Under the pieces are notes generated by a model. It ran no database searches. It was not told the origin of the DNA and worked only from the letters and a program-made list of their open reading frames with translations. Shown here in pieces: positions 16,803 to 37,756 of a stretch of 52,477 nucleotides of DNA. This DNA is from Acidimicrobiales bacterium (GTDB lineage Bacteria; Actinomycetota; Acidimicrobiia; Acidimicrobiales; SZUA-35): assembly GCA_020629695.1 (NCBI GenBank), contig JAHDCV010000026.1:1-52477 (forward strand), given 5' to 3'. The position numbers were made by a program, and so were the translations under genes. Each line of letters opens with the position of its first letter. The first letter of the stretch is position 1.

Positions 16803-19800
16803 TCAGACCAGTTCGGGCGAGACCTGGGACGCGTCCACCGTTCGCATCCGTTCGACGTTCGCCTTCGGCACCCAGGCCGGCCCGGCGGGTGTCTCGATCT
16901 GGACGAGTCCCTTGCTCCGCCGTCGCTTCCCAGTGGCGACGATCTGCTCCGCATCCGAACGGAACGCGAAGCGGACCTCGCCGCCTCCCGGCTCGGTCGT
17001 TGCGCCGAGCAGGTCCCCGGTCGGAACGCCGCGGACTCGCAGTACCGGTCGCAGACGGCGGCGCCAGACGATGAACCAGGTGACACCGATGAACCAGGCG
17101 GCGCCAGCGGAGAACGTGCGCCGAGGCACGGCGGGATCGGAGATGAGCTCGAGAATCGCGACAGCAAGCGCTCGGGTGACCGACGGCAGTGCCTGGAGCG
17201 TGCCGGTCTCGATCGACACCGAGGCCAGCGCGTCCGGAGGCTCGTCACCCGGACCCCGACCCGTCGAGATCACGTCCTGGATGAGCTGTTCCTCCGGCTC
17301 GGCTGGTTCGTTCGGCGTGACGGACACGGGGAGATCGACCACCAGACTCCGCGGCGGCAACTCGCCGCCGTCGGGCCCCACTTCGACCATCGTGATGATC
17401 GCGACGGCACCGGGTTCGACCTCGCCGACGATGTCGAGTGTCCGGATCCATCGTTGGAGTGCGTCCCGCGTCCCGCTGGCGGTGACCTGCCCGGACCGGC
17501 CGGACTCGATCGACACGCCCACGATGTCGTCCCAGCCCATCTCGGCGCCGACCACGTCGATCGTGAGTCGATAGGAGCCGTCGTCGACATCGACGATCCG
17601 GACCGATCGCAGCGCGTCGTCCGCTTGTTCGGGTGCCGTCGCGCCCTCGAGCGCCGCCGGGTCGTTCACCGCCACGACCTCGAGATCCACCGTCGCCGAG
17701 GCTCCGCCCGACGTGACGTAGGAGAAGCGGGTCGAGCCGAACCAGTCCGGCAGCGGCACGAACTCGAGGGCACCATCGGGATCGAGCCGGAGGGTGCCGC
17801 CGGGCAGCGCGACGGTGTCCTGGCCGCCGAGCAGCGCCACGGGGCCGGAACCGTCCGGATCGTTGGCGAGCACGCCGGGGGCATCGACGCGGAGCACGCC
17901 GTCCTCCAGCAGCCGGTAAGCGTCGTCGACCGGGTCGCCGATCGGATCCTGGGGTTCGACCGGATCCGGGGGCTCGATCGGTGGCGAGCTGACGTCCACG
18001 GTGACCGCCGTCGAGGGTCCGTGTCGGGTGCCGTCGTCCTCGATGGCCCAGATGCGAATCGCACGAGCGCCGGCCGTCGTCCACGTCTGGGTGACGGTCG
18101 CCGTGCCGTCACCGTCCGGGTCCTCGACTCGCTGGATGTCGCCGTCGAGGCCCTCGATCTCCCAGGCGACCACACGATCGTCGCCGGGGTCGGTCGCGCT
18201 CAGCACGAAGGTCGCCGGGTTGCCGGCGACGACCGAGACCGGCCCGGTCAACCCGAGCGTCGGCGCCGTGTCGGCCACCGTGAGCGCGCCGGTCCCCGTC
18301 GTCACGAGCTCACCGTCGTCGACCCGCACCCCGATCGGGTAGGTGCCGTCATCGGAGATCCCGAGTGCGAGGAGCTGCGCCCAGGGGATGCTGAGGGCCG
18401 GTCCGGTGGCGTCATCGTGGAGACCGTCGCCGTCGAGATCCCATCGGATCGTCAGTGGATCACCGTCGGGGTCGTTCGCCGTCACGGTCACGACCGTGTC
18501 GCCGCCTTCCGCCGTCGGTGTCGCGACGATCGCTGCGATGTCCGGCGATCGATTCGCCGTCCCCGCGACGAAGACGGGCGAGACCTCCGAGGTGGCCGGC
18601 GCCGCCGTCGTGTTCGTCGCGATGGCGACGAAGCGTTCGCCCGCCGAGCCGGGAAGGTCGAGTTGGACGACGGCGGGTGTGGATCCGACGGTTGCCGAGA
18701 GGGTGCTGGCCAGCACGGCCGGATGGTTCCCGAGCGAGGCTCGCCAGATCTCGATCTCGTACTGACCGGGCGGGAGATCGAGGGTCACGGTCGTGTCGAG
18801 TGTGCCGGCGGCTTCTTCGAGGACCAGGACGGGGTGGTTGAGCCGGCCGTTGGGGCCGGTGTCGGCGTCGCCGACGTCATTCGCATCCGGACCATCGGCA
18901 CCGAGGTCGATCGGTGTTGCGCCGGGCTCGCCGGCCCGGGCCTCGATCGAGGTCCGTCGGACGACGACCGATCCCGTGGCCGCGGCGTCGTGGACCACAC
19001 CGGCGATCCGATGACCCCCGAGCTGCACACCCTCGCCCGTACCGGTGCCGCCGATCGTGGCATCGGCGGCGCCCCGAACGGACACGACGACATCGGCCGA
19101 GGCATCGGGGGTCCCGTCCGCTCGGACGCCGAGGCGGCCACCCCGCACCATGGTCGACGTGACGCCGTCCAGATCCAGCACGACCGAAGATGCGTGGAAC
19201 ACGGGGTCCGTGATCGTGACACTCGCACCGGACCCGGCGACCGAGAGCGCGGTCGCCGGGCGATCCAGCACATCGGTGCCGATCTCGACCCCGGAGAGAT
19301 TGACCGCACCCGAGGCGCCCTCGACGACGATCGACTGGACACCGCCGTGCAGGACCACGGGGCTGGCGCCGTCGCCGACGGCGATGTTCGACCCGTTCCG
19401 GACCCGGATGCCGACGGGTGCGGTCGGGACGACCGCACCGTCGGGCAGGCGGCCCACGAGGAGGTCCGAGAGAACGACCCCGTCGACGCCGTCCACGAGC
19501 ACGATCTCCGCGCCGGCTCCGATGAGTGCCACACCACGAACGGTGGTGCGTGAGCCCGTGACCAGGCTGCCGGTCGCCCCGAGGTCGAGACCGACCACGG
19601 GCGTGCCGGGGACTGCACCGACCTGAGTCGAGCCGTCGAGGGCCGCGTCGTCGATGAGCGATGGCAGCGGGGTCGCGGCAGCGATGCTCCAGCCCCACGC
19701 CGTCCGACCGGGCTCGCTCACCGGGAGGTCGAACACCACCGTCGCCGCGCCGGAGACCGCCATCTCGGCGAGCGCTGCCCGGAGGGTGCATGCCGGGGCA

Positions 19801-22800
19801 CCGGTCGAGTTGAGCAGGCCGGTGCCACACGATCCGTCGCCGGGACTGGAATCCGTCTGGTCACCGGTGCTGTTCACCGTGATCGTGGCCGGCGCCACGG
19901 CGACGATCGCGGGCGAGATCTCCGACGTGGACCCGAACGCACCGCCACCGAGGTCCTCGGTCACCGTGGCGGTGAAGGTCTCCCCGGGGTCTCCCGGCAC
20001 GGCGATCTCCACCGTCATCACACCCGAGACGACGACGTCGGCCGACCCGCGGAACTCCTCGGCCGGACCGGTACCCGCCGGGCCGGGGCCAGACGGATTG
20101 GCGAAGATCTCGACCCGGTGGGCTCCGGGCTGCAGATCGAGGCGTACCGAGACGCGGGCGGTTCCGGCCGCGGCCTCGACCGCGAGCAGATCCGGATGGT
20201 TGATGCCGCCGTTCGTCCCGCCGTCGAGGTCGCCGGGGTCGTTCGCATCGAGGCCGTTCGCTGCGTTGATGGTGCTGAGATCGATTGCGGCACCGCCGGT
20301 GCTGGTGACCGAGGACCCGAGAATGCTGTTGTCGTCGCCGCCGTCGACGTGCACTCCGACAGGGCCGCCGGCGATCACGTTGCCCTCCCCGGGTCCGGTG
20401 CCGCCGATCCGGTTACGGCTGCCCCGGATCGTCACGACTCTGCTGTCCCCGGTCGGCACCACCGAGCCGGACGCGTCCACGCCGAAGTAGCTGCCTTGCA
20501 CCAGCGCGCCCGTGCCCGGCAGGAAGAGCGACGAACCGTGGCCGGCGATGACCACTCGATCCGCCGGATCAGCGCCGCCGATCCGGGCGTCGCTGCCCCA
20601 GACGGTCATGACGTTGTTGGTTCCGTTGATCGTGCTCACGCCGTCGGCGCGGGTCCCGATGAACATCGCCGTCAGCTGTGCACGGGCACCGGTGATGCTG
20701 AAACCTTCGTGGCCAGCGACCGCGAACCCGCGGATGGCGACATCCGCCGCGTTCACGTCGAACACGTCGACGTTGGGAGCCGACGGCAGGATCTCCACGC
20801 TCGGTCGGCCGTCGAAGGGATCGGGATGGGTGGTCGTGTTCGCCGTCCAGCCGGTCTGCGTCGAGCCGTCGATCGTGAGCGCCGTGTCGATGTTGGGGAA
20901 CGAGGACGCCGGAGCGATCGTCCAGACGCCTCCGCTGTGGCCGGGTTCGGTGGCGGGCATCTGGAATTCGATCCGACCGATCGACGGCGTCGCCGCTGCT
21001 TGCGCCAGTGCGGCCCGCAGGGTGCAGGCGGGAACCCCAGCGGAGTTCAGGGCCCCGGTGTCGCACCAGCCGTCGGTGGTGTCGGCGTCGACCGCGTCGC
21101 CGGTGTCGTTGACCACGAGAGTGGGAACGATCACGCCGATGCCGTCGGAGAACTCGGAGGTCCGCATTGGTGTCCCGACGCCGGAGAGCTCGGTGGCCGT
21201 GACGGTGAGTTGATCGAAGGGCACGGCCGGGACCGTGATGGTGAACGTCTGACGGCCGGCGCCGGCATGGGCGACGGTGGCGCTCGTGAGGAGCGCCTCG
21301 CCTTCACCTGCGCCTGACGGATCCAGGCCGTTCGGATTGACGAAGACCTCGAGCCGGACGTCGCTCGCTGGCACGTCCAGATCGACCGTGAGCTCGGTCG
21401 ATGCCCCGGTGAACAACGCCAGCGTGGGTTCCGGGCGGTTCAGGAGTCGATTGGGCCCGATGTCGCCGTCACCGACATCGTTCGCCGTCACGCCGTCGGC
21501 CCCGAGATCGATGCCGAGTGCTCCGCTGGTGGCGATCGAGTTGCCGACGATCGACACCGCGCCATCGGCGGTGCCCGACAGCACGACACCGCCACCGCCG
21601 GTGTTGCGGATCACGTTGCCGTCCGCGCTGGTGAGGCCGCCGACGAGAGCGTTCAACGCTCCGTTGTCGAACAGCACACCGTCGAGCGCCACCGGATGAG
21701 GGTTGCTCGCGCCATCGAGGCCGATCCGGTTCGCCTGGATCGTGGTGTTCGTGGCGCCGTCCACGACGACGCCGGCGCCTGCGGTGTTCCCGATGACGTT
21801 CGCGTCGACGGTGGTGAGGTCGGCACTCGCGATCCGGATGCCGTCGGCGCCGATGACCCCGGCGGTGCTCGCATCGAGTCGGAAGCCGATGAGGTTGCCG
21901 ACGATCGCCGTCGTCGACGTGGTCGCGCCGTCGACGACCACCCCGTTGCCTGCGGCGTCGAGGATGATGTTCCGCTCACCGGGACCGGAGCCACCGATCA
22001 CCGTGCCGGCTGACCCGCCCTCGACGGAGATCGCGTCCCCGAGGCGATCGGGCGCCGGCAGACCGGGGCGTCCGAACTCGTTGCCCTGCACGGTCGTCCC
22101 GCTCGACGCTCGCACGGTCAGGCCGTCGGAGCCGGGGGCGCCGATGAACACGTTGCCGTCGCCGGCCGACGCACCGCCGACCGTCGTCCCACTCGACCCG
22201 TCGATCACGACCAGACCGGCGCCGACGGGGTTCGACGAGCCGTCAGCGTCCATGCCGAACCAGTTGCCGCGCACCGTGATGGCGTCGGCGCCGTCGATCC
22301 GGAGCGCCTCGGCGGCGAAGTCACCGATCGACAGACTCGTCACCGACGAGCCGCTCGACGTCGCCCCGAGGACCAGGCCCGGATGACTGCCCAGTCGGTC
22401 GCCGTCGAGAACCACCACAGGAGTGCCGGCGAATCCCGGCTGGGTCGAACCGTCGATGTCGACGGGCGAGGTGATGTCGGGCAGCGCAGTCGCCGTCTGG
22501 ATGCGCCACCTGCCGGCGAGCTGTCCCGGGTCGCTCACCGGAAGGGCGAAGCTGATGGCATCCACGGCGGGCGAGGCGTTCGCCTCGATGATGGCCGCAC
22601 GGAACGTGCAGGCAGGGTCACCCTCACTGTTGAGGTTCCCGGTGTCGCAGATCCCGTCGCCGGGCGTCGCATCCACCTCGTCGCCCGAGTCGTTCACGAT
22701 CGCACCCACGTTGGGGGTGATGGTGATCCGTCGGTGTGGAACGAGCGTGTGATGGAACGGTCCGGAGGCACCGCCGGTCAACGGGTTCAGAGAGACCAGC

Positions 22801-25800
22801 TGAGCGAGGTGTGTTCCGGTGTCGACGTCGTAGACCTCGAGCTCGTCGTTGGCGAAGTCGGACACGATCAGTCGACGGTCCGGCAGGATCGTCAGTCCGT
22901 TGGGCGAGAAGGTGCCGGCGGAGCCATCCGGCACGAGCACGCCGAGGAGTGCGCCGGTCGCGGGATCGAGCCGGACGACGGACGAGTCGTCCCATCGGCT
23001 GACCAGGACCTCCCCGGCGGGTGAGAACTCCAGCGCCACCGGCATGGCGGCGGGTGCTCCGGTGCCGGTGCTCCACGCGACCACACCGGAGTCGATGTCG
23101 ATGCGCGACACCCGGTTGTTTTGCTGATCGGTGACATACAACTCCCCCTCCGGCCCGACGTGCAGGGCACTCGGGCTCCCGAGCGCCGCCACCGTGCCGA
23201 GCGCCGCGCCCGTACTCCGATCGAACCGTTCGACCTGACCCGTTCCCGCCGACGCCACGAGGAGGTCTCCGTTGCCGGCGAAGGCCAACCCCTTCGGATC
23301 GACGATCCCCGTGTCGACCAGGACGTCGAGGAAGCTGCCGTCGCTGTTGAACCGCAGCACGCGATCGTTCCCGAAGTCCGACACGTAGGTCCGCCCGTCC
23401 GGTCCGACCTCGATGGCGTAGGGGGACGACATGCCCTGACCGGCGCCGAAGACTCCCGACAGCGCGCCCGTGTCCACGTCGATGGCGGCATAGGTCGTCT
23501 GGTCGTACAGAGGAACCAGGAGATCGGTGTCGACGAACGTGCCGTCTTCGTTGGTGACCGACGCCGTGACCGACCGGACACCTGCGTTCGCTCCGTAGGT
23601 GTGGGAGATCGTCGCCGGCAGACCGACCCGATCGTCGATCGTGCCGTCACCCCACGCAATGGACCACGACGTGACGGTGTCGTTGCCCGGGTCTGAGGCG
23701 AAGACGGTCACGGTGACGGTCTGGCCGACCGCCGCGGTGGTGGGGCCGCTGATCGAGATCGAGGGCGGGGTGTCGAGGATCACGAGGGCGAACGAGTCGG
23801 TCGCCCTGCCACCGCGACCGTCGTCGACCTCCAGGCCGATCGTGTGGGTGCCGTCATCGCCGAGGCCGGCCAGCTGGAGCGTCGACCAGGCGATCGTCGG
23901 GCCGACACCGACGGCATCGTCGTGGAAACCATCACCATCGAGATCCCAGGCGTAGGTGAGTGGGTCGGTGTCGGGGTCGGAGGATCCCGAGGCGTCGAGC
24001 GTCACCGCATCGCCTTCGGCGATCGGACCGACGACCGAGGCCACGGCGATCGGATCCGTGTTCGAGGAGGCGACGACGACCGCGTTGGAGAACTCCGACG
24101 AGGCACCCATGTCGCCGAGCGGGTTCTCGGTGAGTACGGCGGTGATCACATCACCGGCAAGGGCCGCGACGGTGACGGTCCGGCTGGCCACGCCGCCCGG
24201 GTGATCGAACCAGATCCTGTCGAGCGGGACCTCACCCTCGCCGAAGCCCGACGCGTCCGCACCCGACGGGTTCGCGTAGAGGTCGATCCGATAGCGCTCG
24301 GCCGGGACGTCGAGATCGACGGCGAGATCCACGTTGCCACCGCCGACCTCGGTGGCCGAGACCAATACGGGATGATTCAACAGACCGTTGGGGCCCGTGT
24401 CGACGTCGCCGGCGTCGTTCGTGTCCACGCCGACGCTGCCGAGATCGATGCCGATTCCGGCATTGCCGAAGATCCGGTTCGTCACGATCGCCGCCTCGGT
24501 CGCCGCGCTTCCGTTCACGGCGACGCCGGCTTCGAAGACCCCGCCGGCACCCGCATTGGTGATCACGTTGGGTGCGGCATCGCCCACCTCGACACCGGTC
24601 GCGCCGTTCTGGATCAGCACACCGTTCTCGATCAGCGGATGCGCACGATCCTCGGCGCGGTTGGTCCCGATCGTGTTGCCGTCGACGAAGACGTTGGTCG
24701 CCGCACCATCGACTTCGACACCGACGAGTGCGTTGCCGATCATGTTGTTCTCGATCGTCGTGAGATCCACCCCGCCGGTGACGCGGATCGCGGACCCGCC
24801 GATCGGCACGGCAGCGGTCCCGTCGGGCGAGATCCCGAGCGTGTTCGATCGAACGACCGTGCTGAACGTGCCGACGTCGTGGATGGCGACACCGGAGACG
24901 CCCCATCCTCCGATCACGTTGCCTTCGGGCAGGGTGAAGCCACCGATCGTGGTCGACTGCGCCGCACCCTGCACCCGGATGCCGTCCCCGGTGCCGGCGA
25001 CGTCGCTCGAGCCGTCGAGACCGACGCCGATGAAGTTCCCGATGATGGTCGTGTCGAGCGCCCCGGTCTGCACCACGATGCCGGCGTCACCGCCGATGAG
25101 ATTCCGGTCCGCTGCCGTCGTGCCGCCGATCACGGCACGGTCTCCCTCGTCGACGAGGACCGACACGTCGCCGAACGCTCCGGAGGCCAGACCGCTCGGG
25201 TCCACCCCGATGTGGTTCCCGACGATCACGGCGTCATCGCCGTCGAGCTCGATCCCGTTCGCATTCGGCCCCGAATAGTTGGCGATGGCCAGTCCGCGGA
25301 TCGTGACCCCGTTTGCGCCCACGTCGATGCGGATCGCGTCGTCGATCCCGGCGCTCGCACCATCGAGTGCGATCACCGGCGTGCCGGCATAACCGGGCTG
25401 GCTCGAGGCGTCGACGGTCATCGTCGTGTCCAGCAGCAGCACGCCCGTCGGCTGGATGGTCCACACACCCCCGCTGTGACCGGCATCCGCAGTCGGAATG
25501 TCGAAGTGGATGGTGTCGACGAGCACCGAGGCGTCGGCTTCCATCTCGGCGGCACGCAGGGTGCACTCCGCGACGCCGAGGGCGTTGAGGCCACCGGTGT
25601 CGCAGATGTCATCGCCGGGGTTGGTGTCGACGGCGGTTCCGGTCGAATTGACCACCACCGTGTTCGTCGGGGTCGTTCGGGCGAACGAGAACTCCGAGGT
25701 CGACCCGAAGGCGCTCGGCGTGAACTGCTCGGTCGTCGTGAGAGTGATGAGATCACCGGGGCTTGCCGACACGCTGACCACGTACGACGCCGCACCACCC

Positions 25801-28800
25801 GGGTGGGTGATGCTCGTCGTACCGGCGAAGATCTCGCCCTCGCCGAAGCCGAGGGACCCGACCGCCGTGTTCCGGAAGCCCTCGAAGCGGTACTCCCCGG
25901 CCGCGAGGTCGACGTCGAAGGAGACCTGGAGCGTGCCGCCGCCGAGATCGGTGACCGAACGAATGACGGGGTGGTTGAGCAGGTCGTTGGCCCCGAGACC
26001 GCTGTCGGGTGAGTCGTTGACGTCGAGTCCGTTGCTCCCGAGATCGATGCCGAGGTCGCCGGTCCCGCTTCCGGAGCTGTGGATCGAGTTGCCGAGGATG
26101 AGTGTGTTCGATCCTCCGGCGATGGTGACGTTGTCCCGGGCGCTGTGGGCGATGAGGTTGCCCTCGCCGGGGCCGATGCCGCCGATCTGGTGGGAGCTCG
26201 AGTTCACCCACACACCGACGTTGTTCGGCAGCGGCGTGGTGCCGTCGGCCGCGACGCCGATGGAGTTGCCGACCACGGTCGCGATGGTGGCCGTCGGAGC
26301 GAGCGTGATCCCGTTCCCGGTGTTGCCTGCGATGAGATTCCCGCCGCCCGGCGTCGACGAGCCGATGTGGACGAGGTCGGCGTTGACGTTGATCCCGGTC
26401 GTGTTCGGGATCGCGCCGAGCCCGTCCAACGTGGTCCCGATGCGATTGCCCTCGATCCGGATGCCGACCGGGGACGAATTGGTCCAGATACCCGAGTTCG
26501 TGTTGCCGCTGACGAGGTTGCCCTCACCGGTGCCGGAGCCACCGATCAACGTGTTTCCGCCCGTGAACACGCCGATGCCGCTCGCACCGACGGACACGGC
26601 CGCGGTTCCCGAACGGTTCGTACCGACGAGGTTGCCCTGCACGGTCACGTCGGGGGCGTCGACCCGGATCGCGTACAGACCGGCGAGTTGGTTCCCTTCG
26701 CCCGGGGCACTGCCACCGACCACGCCGCGGAGCGACCCGACGTCGACGCCAGCGGACGCGTTGGCACGCAGCGTCGTGCCGGTGATGTCGAGCCCGATGA
26801 TCGAGCCCTCGACCCGCTGGTCATCACCGTTCAGCACGATCGCCGCGGCACCCGCGCCGACGAAGTCGTTGACCGCCAGGCCGCGCACGACCGACCCGGC
26901 ACCGTCGAGCTGGAGGCCGTCGCCGGCCACGCCGGACTGGCCGGAGAGTTCGATGGTGACAACGCCATCGGGCGCCGCCGGGAAGACGGTCGTGCCGATG
27001 CTCGCGCCGGATTGGCTGAACCCGTCGATCGTCACGGGCACGGTGATCGCCGGCAGCGGCGTCGCCGGACGGATCGACCAGTACTCCATCGGTGTCGGGA
27101 GTCGAGAGGGGTCGCTGGCCGGAATGTCGAACAGGATGCGGTCGAGCAGCCCTCCGGACGCATTGATCTCCTGGATCGCGGCGCGCAGGGTGCAGGCCGG
27201 TGTTCCCGTCGAGTTGAGTGCGCCGGTGTCGCAGACACCGTCGCCTGGGCTCGCATCGCCCGTGTCACCGCCGTCGTTCACGATGGCCGGGGCGGCGAGC
27301 AGCACCGCCGACGAGAACTCCGAGGTCGAGCCGAAGTTGCCGCCACCGAGGTCCTCGGTGGCCGTCGCGGATGCCCAGACCGTTCCGGGATCGCTCACCG
27401 TCACGGAGAACGTCTCGACGCCACCGCCTGTGTGAACGAGATCGACCGACTGGAGGAAGGTGTCACCGGCACCGACCCCCATGGGCGGCGCCGAGGAGCC
27501 CGCGAACAGCTCGACCCGGTAGCTCCCGGCAGGAACGTCGAGCGAGACGTCGATCTCGTGGTCGAGCCCCGTCGACGTGATCGCACCCATGACCGGATGG
27601 TTCAGCAGACCGTTCGGCCCGACATCGACGTCTCCGGGGTCGTTCGGCGTCACGCCGTCCTCGGCGAGGTCGATCGGCAACCCGCCGTTGTCCCGGATGA
27701 AGTTGCCGATGATCGCGACGTCGTTGGACGCCACGTTGCGGAGCACGATGCCAGACCCGGTGTTGTGTGCGATGACGTTGCCCTCGCCGGGCCCGATTCC
27801 GCCAACAGTCGTGTTCGCGGCGTTGAACGCCCGGATACCGATCGCGTTCGGGATCGACAGGTTGCCGGATGGGTCCACGCCGACGTGGTTCGCCTGCAAG
27901 ATGGTCCCGCCACCAACCTCGACACCGATGGCGTAGTGCCCGACGGTGTTGTCCCGGATCAGCGTTGAATCCCCGGCCCGGATGCCGTCGACGGTGCCGC
28001 CGAGGTCACGGCTGAACGTCGGATCGGTGCCGACGATGTTGCCCTCCACGACGAATCCGGTGGAAACCGAGATCCCGGTCGAACCACCGCCGACGATGTT
28101 CGGAGTCGCCGTCGTCCCGATCTGACCCGGGCCGATCCCGGTCTCGATGCCGAATGACGTCCCGACGGTGTCCAGCACTGCGTCGAGGGTGGCAGTGAGT
28201 CCGATGACGTTGCCGAGCACGGAGGCGTTCGGGGCGTTCCACAGAGCGAAGCCGTGGTTCTCGTTGCTGTTGGTCAGGTTCCGATCGGCCGGATCCTCCG
28301 TGCCGATCACCATGCGATCGCTGGCCGAGGCCACGAGGAGGCTGTAGTTGACCTGATCGGGCGCGGTGCCCGTCGGATCCGTGCCGAAGTAGTTCCCGAC
28401 GACGACGAGGTCGTCGGCCCCCTCGACGGTGATCGCGGTGGCGGAGCCGCCGGGGGTGCCCGAGACGACGAGCCCGCGCAGCGTCGTGTTGTCGGCGGTC
28501 GCCTCGATCGTGAGCAGATGGCTTCCGACCGGCGTCGACGTGTGGTCGAGTTCGATCACCAAGCGGCCATCGAGGGCACCGGGCGCAGGGGTCGTGTTGG
28601 GACGTGCGCCGAGCTGCGTGGTGGCGTCGATCGTGACACCCGAGGTGAGACCCGGGAGCGGTGTGGTGGGCGTGATCCGCCACCACGTGTGGCCACCATT
28701 CGGATAGTCCGGATCGAAGTCGACGATCGACGCCTCATCGAGCGCAGTCGTCACCGGGGTGCCGAGCGATCCTGCGTTGGCGTCGTCGCGGTAGTAGAGA

Positions 28801-30719
28801 CGGTTCGGGTCCGAGGCGGCGATGTCGAAGACCACCTCGTCGATGCCGATACTCGCATTCGCCTCGGTGAGGGCTGCCCGGAGGGTGCACTCGGGATCTC
28901 CGTCCGCCGTCTTGACACCCGTGTAGCAGACCCCGTCGCCAGCGAGGGTGTCGTCGCCGTCGCCGGTGGAGTTCACCGTCGCCACGTCGCCGGACAGGGT
29001 CAGCAGGAAGACGCCGCCGTGATCGGCGGGACCCCGCTGTTCCAGCCCGCCCGCCACGCGAGGTCTGCCGAGTCGGTCGGCACCCATGCCCGCCACGGCC
29101 GCTCCGAGACGGTCACCCGCATCGAGGGTCTCCAAGAGGCCCGTCGTGGCATCCACGATCAACGTCGAGCTCGCCGCGGCGCCGGACGCATCGAGTTCGA
29201 TCACGGCCAGGGCACCCGCATCGAAGGCGGCGGTGTCCTCACCGGGCAGACCGACGACGATGTCGGGGACACCGTCGCCGCCGAGGTCGCCGATGCCGGC
29301 GATGTCGGCGCCGAACGCGTCGCCGGTCGAGAGCGCGATGCCGAGACCTCCGGTCGAGGAGGAGATCTTCGTGTGCCCGCTCGCCGAGCCGTCCGGATTC
29401 AGGAACACGACGTAGACGGCGCCGCGGTTGACGCCGCCGTCGTCGTCGTTGGCCGCCCCGACGACGACGTCCGGCGTTCCGTCACCATCGACGTCACCCA
29501 CCGCACCGACGCGGCCGAACTGATCGTCGTCGTCGAGGAGTGCGGTGAAACCCCCGGCGATGTCCGACAGCTTCTGCTCGGCTTTCACCGCCCCATCGAG
29601 TCCGAGCTGGAGAACGTGCACGGCGCCGCGGTCGGTACCACCGTCATCGTCGTTGGGAGCGCCGACCGCGAGGTCGTTGATGCCGTCACCGTCGATGTCG
29701 CCGATCGCGGCGACCGCACGGCCGAAGAGGTCGCCGTCGCTCAGCGGTGCGACGAGTCCGCCGGTGACGTCTGAGATCTTCGTCTCGGCGACGACCGAGC
29801 CAGCGGCGTCGATCGACAGGATGTGCACCGCTCCCCGGTTCGTCCCGCCGTCGTCGTCGAACGGCGCGGCCACCGCGATCTCGATGGTGCCGTCGCCCTG
29901 GAGGTCGCCGAGACCGGCAATCGAGTCGCCGAAGGCATCGCCGGCGTCGATCGTCGCAGCAAGTCCGCCCAGTCCCGAGCCGATCACTCGATCGCTCGCG
30001 ACCGAGCCGTCCTCGGCCAGGAACAGGATTCGGATCTGTTCGGCTTGGGTGACACCGACGGCGAGGTCGTCGACCCCGTTGCCATCGACATCGCCGATGC
30101 CCGCCAACCCGTCTCCGAACTCGTCGCCGGCGTTGATCGTCGTCAGATTCGGCGTGGTCTCGTCGAACAGATCGACCGCCGCGACCTGTGCCCGTGAGGT
30201 GCGCGTCGGCATGTCCAGATGGTTCGGCTGCCCATCGCGGTCGTCATCGGCCGCGTCCCGGTCGAAACCGTCGCCGTTCGGGTCGGCCTGCTCCGTTGCG
30301 GTCGGCCTGCCATCGCCGTCGTCGTCGGGGTCCAGGTAGTCCGGAGTGCCGTCGCCGTCGGTGTCGACGGCGTCGTCGGGATGGCCGTCACCGTCGGGGT
30401 CAGCCCCCTCGGCGACGGTGAGAACGCCGTCGCCGTCATCATCGACGTCGTTGACGTCATCGGTGAGATCACCGTCGGTGTCGCCGACCTCGAACTCATC
30501 ACAGACGCCGTCGCCATCGGTGTCGATCAGACAGTGGGCGAATGCGAGGGGTCGCGGCGTCGCTGTCGCCGACCCGGCAACGGTGGGCAGCACCATGATG
30601 AGACCGGCGAGCGCAGCCACCGAGGCGGTGAAGAGCGCCCCTCGGACGCGACGGTGCCGCCCGAACCCGATGTGGGTCGAGCGGCACCGGCGCAGCGCCA
30701 GGCCCGGCACCGCCCTCAC
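16803..30719 (-). CDS. Giant (4638-residue) membrane-anchored CSLREA/beta-helix surface protein
   Basis: A very large surface protein. Order: a basic N-terminus with a signal-type helix (about 27-50, [25 protein letters not shown]); thrombospondin-3-like Ca-binding repeats (about 60-170, [12 protein letters not shown] and similar); FG-GAP repeats; six CSLREA/parallel beta-helix modules; PKD-like domains with an NHL propeller between modules three and four; more PKD- and cadherin-like domains ([19 protein letters not shown]); and one transmembrane helix ([15 protein letters not shown], about 4537-4552) followed by RRRLR and an 80-residue cytoplasmic tail ending in a small SH3-like stretch ([21 protein letters not shown]). 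This looks like an adhesin or matrix protein. The GTG at 30719 overlaps the stop of the upstream kinase-like gene (GTGA). No frameshift is seen across 13.9 kb. Confidence 0.92.
   Translation of the reverse strand: [4638 protein letters not shown]
18560..28990 (-). repeat. Six CSLREA plus beta-helix modules within the giant protein
   Basis: Six related modules, each about 400-560 residues, begin with VN(S/D)-G-x-D... GDG-CDTG...CT(L/F)RAA. Their CTLRAA motifs lie near 28880, 27190, 25560, 22600, 21020 and 19780. Each continues with beta-helix coils ([22 protein letters not shown] and variants) and ends with [16 protein letters not shown] and [15 protein letters not shown]. Modules one to three are adjacent; four follows the NHL region. 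Their order and shared ends indicate tandem duplication, with enough divergence to suggest the copies are old. Confidence 0.85.
22710..23490 (-). other. NHL-type six-bladed propeller inside the giant protein
   Basis: About 260 residues between the third and fourth CSLREA modules read as NHL/SMP-30-like blades: [75 protein letters not shown] and [25 protein letters not shown]. Such propellers are usually protein- or ligand-binding platforms. Immediately before it, PKD-like domains are visible ([33 protein letters not shown] type). This insert interrupts the otherwise regular module series. Confidence 0.75.
28990..30150 (-). other. FG-GAP (integrin-like) repeats near the N-terminus of the giant protein
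   Basis: Roughly seven repeats of the form GDxFG-x-x-AGIGDLDGDGIxDLAVGAPxDDDGG-x-RGAVHVL occur between the Ca-binding N-terminus and the first CSLREA module. FG-GAP repeats make a beta-propeller with Ca-binding DxDGD loops, as in integrin alpha chains and bacterial adhesins. Seven blades would make one closed propeller. Confidence 0.8.
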
Positions 30720-33691: not shown

Positions 33692-35094
33692 CGGCGGCAC
33701 AACAGGCCACAGCGCCGGAGATTCCTCGGCGGTCCTGGCAGACCCTCGCCATCACCTCGATGGTGGGCTTCATGGTCTCGATGGAGATCACGATCATCGC
33801 GTTGGCATTGCCCGACATCCGCGATGCGTTCCCGGATGCGACCGAATCGCTGCTGTCCTGGGTCATCACGACCTACAACATCGGCGTCGCCTCGCTCCTC
33901 CTGCTCGCCGGGTGGGCGGCGGATCGCTACGGACGCAAGAAGATCTTCCTGTGGGGCCTGCTCATCTTCCTGGTCGGCTCGACGCTGTCGGGTCTGTCGC
34001 AGAGCGCCACGCAGCTCATCGTCGCGCGGGGCATCCAGTCGGTGGGCGGGGCGCTCCAGTTCCCTGCCGGTCTCGCCCTGCTCCTGCCGGCCTTCCCGAT
34101 CGAACGCCGCGGCATGGCGATCGGTATCTGGGGGGCGATGGGTGGACTCGCCGCAGCCCTCGGACCTCCCCTCGGTGGTCTGCTGGTGGGTGCGTTCAAC
34201 TGGCGGGCGGTCTTCCTCGTCAACGTGCCGGTCGCGGCATTCGCCGTGATCGCCGGGCGCTCGTGGCTCACCGAGTCCACCTCGGATGACGTTCCCGATC
34301 GGGTCGATCCGATCTCGGTGCCCTTGGCGTCGCTCGGCGTCGGCGCCATCATCTTCGGCATCGTGCAGAGCGAGAGCTGGGGACTCGCCGACGTCCGAAT
34401 CCTGGGCGCCTTCGTGCTGGGACTCGTCCTGATCGCCGTGTTCGTGCACCGATCCCGAACCCACCCCCGGCCGCTGTTCGACCTCGGGCTCTTCCGCTTG
34501 CCGAGCTACGCCCTCGGCAATCTCGGCACGATCTTCTTCGTCGTTGCGTTCTTCTCGTTCTTCGTCCCGTTCCCCACGTTCGTTCAGGGCACGTGGGACT
34601 ACTCGGTGATCCGCACCGGCCTGGCGATCGCGCCCGGCCCACTGCTGGCCACAGTGCTCTCCCCCGTGCTCGGGAACCTGGCCGACCGCGTCGGTCCCGG
34701 CGTCATCCTGGCGGTCGGCGGCGTGGCGGGTGCCGCCTCGATGGCCTGGCATCTCGCCTTCATCGGGACCGACCCCGACTGGCTCGTCGGTCTGCTCCCC
34801 GGTGCACTCCTCCTCGGCGTCGCCGCCGGAGCGTCCTTCGCGATGTCGGTCTCGGCGGTGATGCGCGACGTCGGTCCGACGCGGTTCGGCATGGCGGGCG
34901 CGGCCCGGACCACGATCTTCCAGCTCGGAGTCGCGCTCGCCATCGCGCTCGCCGTGGCCATCGTCGGCCGGCCCGAGGCGGGTCGGGTCGCGTTGGAGGC
35001 GTCGCGACGCGGGTGGTGGCTCGCACTCGGCTGCTTCGCCGCGCAGGCGCTGATCTTCGGGGTCTTCTTCCCCCGGGGCAACGCAGAACGCTGA
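33688..35094 (+). CDS. MFS drug-exporter-like transporter (DHA2/EmrB type)
   Basis: A 468-residue membrane transporter. It has many hydrophobic helices (14 would fit the length), beginning with LAITSMVGFMVSMEITIIALALPDIRDAF and WVITTYNIGVASLLLLAGWAADRYGRKKIFL, the DHA2-family signature with GxLaDRxGrkk. The start is the GTG at 33688, which forms a four-base overlap with the monooxygenase stop; a longer in-frame ATG upstream would lie within that gene. It ends fourteen bases from the convergent glutathione peroxidase gene. Export of a hydrophobic compound modified by the monooxygenase is a reasonable inference, not shown. Confidence 0.88.
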   Translation: MTAAQQATAPEIPRRSWQTLAITSMVGFMVSMEITIIALALPDIRDAFPDATESLLSWVITTYNIGVASLLLLAGWAADRYGRKKIFLWGLLIFLVGSTLSGLSQSATQLIVARGIQSVGGALQFPAGLALLLPAFPIERRGMAIGIWGAMGGLAAALGPPLGGLLVGAFNWRAVFLVNVPVAAFAVIAGRSWLTESTSDDVPDRVDPISVPLASLGVGAIIFGIVQSESWGLADVRILGAFVLGLVLIAVFVHRSRTHPRPLFDLGLFRLPSYALGNLGTIFFVVAFFSFFVPFPTFVQGTWDYSVIRTGLAIAPGPLLATVLSPVLGNLADRVGPGVILAVGGVAGAASMAWHLAFIGTDPDWLVGLLPGALLLGVAAGASFAMSVSAVMRDVGPTRFGMAGAARTTIFQLGVALAIALAVAIVGRPEAGRVALEASRRGWWLALGCFAAQALIFGVFFPRGNAER

Positions 35095-35108: not shown

Positions 35109-35585
35109 TCAGCCGAGCAGCGTGGGAATCTGCTCGGCGATGTCTTCGGGTGAGGTCATCGGCTCGAAGCGTGCGAGCACCTCGCCGTCGCCGGACACCA
35201 GGAACTTGGTGAAGTTCCAGGCGATGTCGCTCGACTCGCCCTCACCGGGCTGTTCGGACTTGAGCCACTGGTACAGCTCGCAGGCGCCGTCTCCGTTCAC
35301 CTCGATCTTCGAGAACATCGGGAAGTCGATGTCGAAGTTGTCGGTGACGAACGCCTTGATCTCGGCCTCGGGCTTCGGCTCCTGCTCACCGAACTGGTTG
35401 CAGGGGAAACCGAGCACCGTGACGCCGTTGTCGTCGTGATGAAGCGTACGCAGACCTGCGTACTGGGGCGTGAGGCCTCAATAGGAGGCGACGTTGACGA
35501 CGAGGCAGGCGGCCCCCGCATACTGCGAGAACGCGATCGGATCGCCGTCGATGGAGGTCATCGTCAGATCGTGGAATCGGGTCAT
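35109..35585 (-). CDS. Glutathione peroxidase family selenoprotein (UGA read as selenocysteine)
   Basis: The reading frame is 158 residues, the usual GPx size, only if a TGA at codon 36 is read as an amino acid. Its translation runs VNVASY-U-GLTPQYAGL, exactly the place of the catalytic Cys/Sec in the family (VNVASxC/U-G). Further conserved motifs are GFPCNQFGEQEP (Gln68) and IAWNFTKF (Trp123, Asn124), completing the catalytic tetrad Sec36-Gln68-Trp123-Asn124. A hairpin like known bacterial SECIS elements lies just downstream of the TGA. The gene starts at ATG 35585 (MTRFHDLTMTSIDGDP). It reduces peroxides using thiols, probably thioredoxin or mycothiol-linked in an actinobacterium. Gene callers would split it into two pieces. 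It needs selA, selB, selC and selD elsewhere. Confidence 0.88.
35446..35463 (-). promoter_or_regulatory. Bacterial SECIS-type hairpin for the glutathione peroxidase
   Basis: On the mRNA strand a perfect stem GTACGCA-GGTC-TGCGTAC starts 15 bases after the UGA (35478-35480). The loop is GGUC, and its inner part GCAGGUCUGC matches what I recall of the apical part of the E. coli fdhF SECIS. The codons across it (GCA, GGT, CGT, CTT) are rarer than this GC-rich gene would normally use, suggesting selection on RNA structure. Bacterial SECIS elements lie within the coding region directly after the Sec codon and recruit SelB, as here. Confidence 0.8.
35478..35480 (-). other. In-frame UGA, selenocysteine codon 36 of glutathione peroxidase
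   Basis: TGA stands exactly where the family has its catalytic Cys or Sec, with the reading frame continuing 122 codons beyond it to the normal stop. One base change (TGC to TGA) would also explain it, but the downstream hairpin makes recoding the better reading. The same TGA serves as stop for the upstream 35 codons if not recoded. Confidence 0.85.
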
Positions 35586-35682: not shown

Positions 35683-36504
35683 GTGCCGCCGGTGCCCTCC
35701 ACCTCACGCGACTTCCTCGGACTCGTCGACACCGCCGACGATCGCACCGAGATGCTGCTCACCTCGGCCAACACCGGCGGAGGTGAGTCGCTGTTCGGTG
35801 GCGCCGGGCTGGGAGCCGCCGTTCTCCTCGCCGAGGAACGGGCCGGCCGGCCGGCCATCTGGATGACGACGCAGTTCATCTCGCTCACCCGACGGAACGA
35901 GGTGATGCGGTTCCGGTGTGACACGCCGGCGACCGGTCGCACCATGACGCAGGTCCAGGTGCACGCCGAGGTCGACGGGCGGCTCGTGATGTCCGGCATG
36001 GGCGCATGTGGAGAGCGGCCCGAACATCATCGGACCGCCCAGCTCCGCCCACCGGACGCGCCGGGCCCCGAAGCGTCCGAAGCCGTCGTGCGGGATCCCG
36101 ACGACACGTCCGCCCTGCACCACCTCGTCGACACCCGGGTCGCCCGAGGCATGTTCGGGTTCACCGAGACCGGCACGCCGTCGGGCGACGAACGTTCGTG
36201 GATCTGGTGCCGCATGCCCACGGTCGACCTCGACGCCGCCGTACTGGCGATGCTCGCCGACTACATGCCCTCGGTGCTCGGCAACGCCGTGGCGGATCGC
36301 GTGTGGTGCTCCTCGATCGACAACACCATCCGCTTCGCCGATCCGGTCGATGATCCGGCGGGCTGGGTGTTGCTCGAGAACTCGGCGGAGTTCGTCGGCA
36401 ACGGATTCGGCATCGGCCGGTGCCGGATGTGGAGCGAGTCGGGACGACTGCTCGCCACCGCTTCGCAGTCGATGTCCGTCCGCCTGCCGCCACCCGGCGC
36501 CTGA
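35683..36504 (+). CDS. Acyl-CoA thioesterase, TesB-like double hotdog protein
   Basis: A 273-residue product with two hotdog halves. The first contains GGESLFGGAGLGAAVLLAEERAGRPAIWMTTQFISLTRRNEVMRFRCDTPATGRTMTQVQVHAEVDGR and the second ADRVWCSSIDNTIRFADPVDDPAGWVLLENSAEFVGNGFGIGRCRMWSESGRLLATASQSMSVRL, the TesB-type arrangement with thioesterase activity toward acyl-CoA. The start is uncertain: GTG 35683 or GTG 35692 (VPSTSRDFL); neither has a ribosome-binding site. The gene is divergent from the glutathione peroxidase and precedes the DUF3179 gene by 37 bases, so it may be co-transcribed with it. Substrate unknown. Confidence 0.8.
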   Translation: MPPVPSTSRDFLGLVDTADDRTEMLLTSANTGGGESLFGGAGLGAAVLLAEERAGRPAIWMTTQFISLTRRNEVMRFRCDTPATGRTMTQVQVHAEVDGRLVMSGMGACGERPEHHRTAQLRPPDAPGPEASEAVVRDPDDTSALHHLVDTRVARGMFGFTETGTPSGDERSWIWCRMPTVDLDAAVLAMLADYMPSVLGNAVADRVWCSSIDNTIRFADPVDDPAGWVLLENSAEFVGNGFGIGRCRMWSESGRLLATASQSMSVRLPPPGA

Positions 36505-36541
36505 TCGGGAAGACCACCGTCGTGTCGGCGGTTCCGAGCGG

Positions 36542-37756
36542 GTGACTGCTCGGATCGCTGCGCTCGCCATCGGTACCGCTCTGCTGGCGACCGCGTGCGC
36601 GGACGCGGGCGACCCGTTGCAGACCACGCAGCCGACCACTCCCCTCGAGTACCTGGACGGCCCGACACGGGCCTTCCTCCGCCAGATGAACGAGCCCCGC
36701 CCGGTGGACAACTCCGCGATGCCGCCGCGGCACTGGGACCCGGAACGCTTCCCCGAGACGCTCGTCGTCCGCACCGAGATCGTGCCGGGCGGTCCGCCAC
36801 CTGACGGGATCCCACCGATCGACGAGCCGGTCCATCTCGGCCAGGACTCGATCGACTGGCTCGACGAGCGGGAGGCGGTCATCGTCGTCTCCGCCGGTGG
36901 GGAGACCCGGATCTATCCCGTCCAGGTGCTGATCTGGCACGAGATCGTGAACGACGAGCTCGGCGGTCGACCCGTCACCGTCACCTACTGCCCACTCTGC
37001 AACTCGGCGGTGGTCTTCGATCGTGAGATCGACGGCGACGTCCTGGACTTCGGCACGTCGGGTTACCTCTACCAGTCCTCGCTCGTGATGTACGACCGCC
37101 AGACCGAGTCCCTCTGGACCCACTTCGACGGGCGTGCCGTCGTCGGGACACGGATCGGCGACGAGCTCGACCTGCTCCCTGCGACCACGATGTCGTGGGC
37201 GGACGCCCGTGGGGCGTTTCCGAACGCGACCGTGCTGGGCCGCGATGTCGTCGACCCGAAGCCGTACGGACAGAACCGGTATGCCGGCTACGACCAGAGC
37301 GAGCGGCCCCTGTCGGGCTGGTTCACGAACCGCGAGGTCTCCGAGGACCTCCCGCTCATGGGTCGGGTCGTGGGCGTGCGACGCGGCGACCCCGTGGCGA
37401 TCCCGCTCGATCTCCTCCGGCCCGCACGAGTCCTGATGGTGGACGACGGCCGGCCGCTGGTGGTCTTCTGGCAGCCCGGCACGAACTCACCCCTGCAGGA
37501 CGACGAGATCGCCGGCGGCGACGACATCGGATCGACGGGCGTCTACGTCCCGCAGCACGAGGGGTCGACACTCACCTTCGTGGCGACGGCCGATGCGATC
37601 GTCGACGAGCAGACCGGGTCGAGCTGGACAGCGGCGGGCGTCGCGGTCGACGGCCCGCTGGTCGGGTCCCGACTCGAGCCGGTCGAGCACCTCGACACCT
37701 TCTGGTTCGCCTGGGCGACGTTCGAACCGGCGACGCAGGTGGTCACCGGTCCTTGA
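36542..37756 (+). CDS. DUF3179 domain-containing lipoprotein
   Basis: A 404-residue protein. It starts with a signal peptide ending in a lipobox-like LLATACADAG, so it is probably anchored to the outer face of the membrane. The body shows the DUF3179 family: YPVQVLIWHEIVNDELGGRPVTVTYCPLCNSAVVFDR, then SLWTHFDGRAVVGTRIGDELDLLPATTMSWADARGAFPNATVL. The paired cysteines in CPLC are the family's most conserved residues and suggest metal or redox chemistry, but the function of DUF3179 proteins is not established. The start is GTG 36542, preceded by GAGCGG. The later part (SPLQDDEIAGGDDIGSTGVYVPQ) is also family-typical. It ends 13 bases from the convergent crotonase gene. Confidence 0.85.
   Translation: MTARIAALAIGTALLATACADAGDPLQTTQPTTPLEYLDGPTRAFLRQMNEPRPVDNSAMPPRHWDPERFPETLVVRTEIVPGGPPPDGIPPIDEPVHLGQDSIDWLDEREAVIVVSAGGETRIYPVQVLIWHEIVNDELGGRPVTVTYCPLCNSAVVFDREIDGDVLDFGTSGYLYQSSLVMYDRQTESLWTHFDGRAVVGTRIGDELDLLPATTMSWADARGAFPNATVLGRDVVDPKPYGQNRYAGYDQSERPLSGWFTNREVSEDLPLMGRVVGVRRGDPVAIPLDLLRPARVLMVDDGRPLVVFWQPGTNSPLQDDEIAGGDDIGSTGVYVPQHEGSTLTFVATADAIVDEQTGSSWTAAGVAVDGPLVGSRLEPVEHLDTFWFAWATFEPATQVVTGP

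Follow-up and report, generated by a model that had tools for sequence, protein, structure and literature searches.

A putative selenocysteine-containing glutathione peroxidase gene and its conserved SECIS hairpin in Acidimicrobiales

The gene and its in-frame TGA

The window, the whole 52,477-nt stretch of DNA analysed here, carries on its minus strand (35585-35109) a 158-residue open reading frame of the glutathione peroxidase (GPx) family. The frame holds exactly one in-frame stop before its end. From the ATG (35585-35583) 35 codons lead to a TGA at codon 36 (35478-35480, minus strand), and another 122 codons lead to a second TGA, the ordinary stop of the gene (35111-35109). In a Pfam profile search the protein scores 130.1 bits against PF00255 (GSHPx), for which the gathering threshold is 27, and the match spans profile positions 1-108, covering both flanks of the internal TGA. 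A search of the PDB with the 158-residue protein finds solved GPx structures, including GPX4. All four residues of the catalytic tetrad (U36, Q68, W123, and N124) lie in the same frame. The initial annotation had proposed a normal 158-residue GPx once the TGA is read through, and both the single internal stop and the full-length PF00255 match (130 bits) bear this out. It had also expected automatic annotation to give a truncated gene from an internal ATG; the longest open reading frame after the TGA in the standard code starts instead at a GTG (35417-35109) and encodes 102 amino acids.

Homologues place the TGA at the catalytic Cys/Sec position of the family, as had been suggested from this sequence. 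At this codon, 109 homologues have TGA and 41 have TGC or TGT, which encode the redox-active Cys. The tetrad, whose Gln68, Trp123, and Asn124 the initial annotation had already recognized, is invariant in 109 of the 109 TGA homologues.

This is the only GPx gene found in the source genome, and it appears to stand alone. Both of its neighbours are on the plus strand: an MFS transporter gene ending at 35094, with which it is convergent, and a gene for a DUF3179 protein (frame 36008-37756), from which it is divergent. Elsewhere in the window, a minus-strand frame of 4638 residues (16803-30719) contains PKD, FG-GAP, beta-helix, and NHL/Vgb-lyase-like repeats; the product is probably a very large protein, either secreted or located at the cell surface.

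The SECIS hairpin and the sel genes

The UGA is followed in the mRNA by GGCCUCACGCCCCA and then by the hairpin GUACGCA-GGUC-UGCGUAC (35446-35463, minus strand). Its 7-bp stem pairs 35463-35457 with 35452-35446, and its four-base loop GGUC lies at 35456-35453. The stem begins 14 nt and the loop 21 nt after the UGA. The gene therefore has a hairpin close on the 3' side of the UGA with a G in the apical loop, as in bacterial selenoprotein genes. The initial annotation did not mention a SECIS element, yet it is present and conserved. The top of the hairpin, GCAGGUCUGC, is identical to that of the SECIS of E. coli fdhF (formate dehydrogenase H), GGUC loop included. The two elements differ in the lower stem, in the protein encoded, and in spacing, as the loop of fdhF starts 18 nt after the UGA and not 21.

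Among the 109 Sec homologues, all seven pairs can form in 96 and six of the seven in the other 13, while the 41 Cys homologues (TGC/TGT) retain only 0-5 of the seven. When synonymous codons are resampled, the mean is 4.57 pairs and the maximum 4.96 in 300 trials; the observed value is 6.86 (85 distinct sequences). The Ala codon within the hairpin is GCA in 78 of these 85 sequences although GCA is the least-used Ala codon elsewhere in these genes, implying that rare codons are retained at the hairpin. Two compensatory double changes are also found: C20-G31 becomes U-A in L081 and L106, and G21-C30 becomes A-U in L093 and L096, where Ala is replaced by Thr and Arg by Cys with the pair retained. 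It is this conservation on which the SECIS assignment rests, rather than a match in Rfam or the folding energy by itself. The Rfam covariance search gives no match to a SECIS family at E values up to 10, and the folding energy of the 54-nt segment is within one standard deviation of dinucleotide shuffles (z = -0.96). A genome-wide search for GCAGGTCTGC, aimed at further selenoproteins, gives three additional sites, and at none of them does a long frame run through a suitably placed TGA. Note that GCAGGTCTGC occurs four times in the source genome and the same letters reversed occur 32 times; this scarcity may reflect composition, or avoidance of SECIS-like tops.

The source genome (4.17 Mb in 121 contigs, 97% complete) encodes the machinery for selenocysteine. 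A search for selA, selB, selC (tRNA-Sec), and selD had been proposed as a check of the initial annotation, and all four are present; their absence, which the annotation had named as grounds for refutation, is not observed. There is one tRNA-Sec gene (C25:81981-82072), which scores 67 bits, above the Rfam cut-off, and is likewise called tRNA-Sec by ARAGORN with the anticodon tca. On the same contig selA (400 bits) adjoins selB (263 bits), and the SelB frame comprises the GTPase, the SelB beta-barrel, and the SelB winged-helix (SelB-wing_3) domains. selD (L020, G000:C48:57425-58348) scores 351 bits in the genome search and 357 as translated. It has its own in-frame TGA at LTQFSHGAG-U-ACKLS, the position at which selenoprotein forms of SelD have Sec. 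Thus selD is likely to encode a second selenoprotein of this genome.

Predicted decoding, catalysis, and reductant

Together with the sel genes, the conserved SECIS supports the Sec-decoding interpretation of the initial annotation, and we regard it as very probable that the gene encodes a GPx-family selenoprotein in which UGA codon 36 is read as Sec. In the predicted course of events, a ribosome would arrive at this codon while the mRNA hairpin 14 nt downstream is bound by the C-terminal winged-helix part of SelB. SelB would deliver Sec-tRNA, which SelA would make on the tRNA-Sec of this genome using selenophosphate supplied by SelD, and Sec would be inserted. Translation would then continue and terminate at the TGA at 35111-35109. 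In the enzyme, Gln68, Trp123, and Asn124 would hold the selenolate, which would reduce hydroperoxides. An outside thiol would then regenerate the enzyme, and mycothiol or a protein thiol is a more probable candidate for this role than glutathione.

Other explanations of the TGA can be weighed against this. The source assembly is in 121 contigs, and a TGC or TGT could have become TGA through an error of sequencing or assembly; such an error is extremely improbable, as the same codon is TGA in 109 separate homologues, some of them from single-contig genomes (G006, G134, and G321). A pseudogene cut by a nonsense mutation would formally look the same, with one in-frame stop. It would not be expected to keep an invariant tetrad and an intact frame past the stop, to share its TGA across phyla, or to retain a hairpin beyond what protein coding demands in a genome with sel genes, and we consider this very unlikely. 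Genome-wide reassignment of TGA to an amino acid, as in codes 4 or 25, can be practically dismissed: no support for it was found, the gene's own stop is TGA, and tRNA-Sec, SelB, and the hairpin account for the recoding.

Thioredoxin-type GPx enzymes have a resolving Cys at the place equivalent to residue 80 of the present protein, which is Val (codon at 35346-35348, minus strand). Of the 41 Cys homologues, 34 have Cys at this position; the 109 Sec homologues all have Ala, Val, or Ile there. The thioredoxin-type Cys-GPx of other Acidimicrobiales belongs to the same family, with about 50% identity, but differs in its catalytic TGC/TGT codon, its resolving Cys, and its lack of the hairpin. Vertebrate GPX4, on the other hand, has Sec and the tetrad without a resolving Cys, as does the present protein. 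The two differ in the position of the SECIS, which is in the 3' UTR of the eukaryotic gene and within the coding region here. Because the resolving Cys is absent, the sequence fits a one-Sec, GPX4-like peroxidase turned over by an outside thiol.

For the nature of this thiol, the biosynthetic genes of the source genome were searched. The sole GshB-like match is RimK and was rejected as a glutathione synthase. An MshC-like ligase has the best score, 434 bits, under its cut-off of 485 bits. With only RimK for GshB and an MshC-like gene under the cut-off, mycothiol or a protein thiol would be the likelier reductant. The family name and the closeness to GPX4 would favour a Sec-decoded but classical glutathione-using peroxidase, a rival for the reductant step only. 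We consider it unlikely given the same two search results, of which the first concerns GshB and would be compatible with import of glutathione.

Distribution and Sec/Cys evolution

In a sample of 397 genomes of Acidimicrobiales, a GPx match is found in 207 and the form with exactly one in-frame stop, TGA, in 54. The TGA is at the same codon in all 50 of these 54 genomes that were read and in separately fetched loci. tRNA-Sec is found in 51 of the 54 genomes with TGA-GPx and in 217 of the 343 others (Fisher p = 5e-7 with shared ancestry ignored), in a list that extends to E values of 5e-8 and includes a few matches below the Rfam cut-off. The three genomes where it was not found (G178, G392, and G170) are 83-88% complete, and the hairpin is intact at their loci (L163, L167, and L175). 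Across the phylum-wide sample, with matches at E values up to 1e-44, TGA forms are found within Acidimicrobiales only, a threshold and sample that leave room for others. The nearest named relative (L052), from an Acidimicrobiales bin, is 82% identical. Other relatives with nearly the same hairpin come from Myxococcota, Pseudomonadales, and other gammaproteobacterial bins; most relatives are from metagenome bins, and single odd placements may be due to misbinning. One Cys-GPx of Acidimicrobiales (L158, G008:C188:5662-6099) has an in-frame TAG and is probably a pseudogene or an error.

Bacterial Sec-GPx itself is already known. Five Sec-GPx sequences are reported from the Sargasso Sea (PMC1088965) and 40 from the Global Ocean Sampling data (PMC2398784), and Sec-GPx is also reported from Treponema denticola (PMC1794560). 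A single Sec-GPx appears in a 2006 survey, and a 2026 review lists bacterial Sec-GPx (COG0386/PF00255) with the motif UxxT (PMC13188914). The UGLT of the Acidimicrobiales gene fits this motif, and family, catalytic Sec, and a bacterial SECIS with G in the small apical loop are shared with the known examples. In searches of these papers, no Acidimicrobiia are named in connection with GPx. A literature search for selenoproteins or selenocysteine in Acidimicrobi- found no paper on the subject, judged by titles and abstracts, which is weak evidence given that most subscription journals were outside the search. The breadth of Sec-GPx across Acidimicrobiales thus seems undescribed in the papers searched. 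The initial annotation had called Sec-GPx uncommon in bacteria; older surveys agree, but the statement fails for Acidimicrobiales, where the TGA form is in about a quarter of the GPx-positive genomes (54 of 207). What is new is the distribution and the evolutionary detail, not the idea of a bacterial Sec-GPx. A whole, little-studied actinobacterial order would join the users of a GPX4-type selenium-dependent peroxidase, providing a large collection of natural Sec enzymes and their Cys sisters for testing the price and gain of selenium and pointing to genes that standard annotation tends to cut at the TGA.

In a tree of 110 proteins, all Sec forms and seven Cys forms are on one side of a branch with support of 100/95. 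The Sec and Cys states on this tree need four changes, three of which are forced by supported branches. If the tree is rooted among the outer Cys forms, the pattern corresponds to Sec being gained once and lost three times: in L061, in L071, and in L104 with L110-L113. The seven Cys forms within the Sec clade are those that lack the resolving Cys, which fits inheritance of its absence by Cys revertants. One of them, L071 (TGT), still has the hairpin in degraded form, CAATACGCAGGTCTTTGTAC. Some rows of Acidimicrobiales and Myxococcota interleave in the tree (L068 and L051), which suggests transfer, with several of such forks weakly supported. A single Sec-GPx lineage with its near-invariant SECIS (CAGTACGCAGGTCTGCGTRC) may have been passed between Acidimicrobiia, Myxococcota, and gammaproteobacteria as a complete recoding unit, with at least three reversions to Cys, a possibility to which we give slightly less than an even chance. 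As part of the same tentative scenario, five of the seven Cys forms (the clade of L104 and L110-L113) would be rebuilding a two-Cys mechanism after the loss of selenium: in them a Cys that occurs in no Sec form has arisen three residues ahead of the resolving position (EICxFA/QICEFA).
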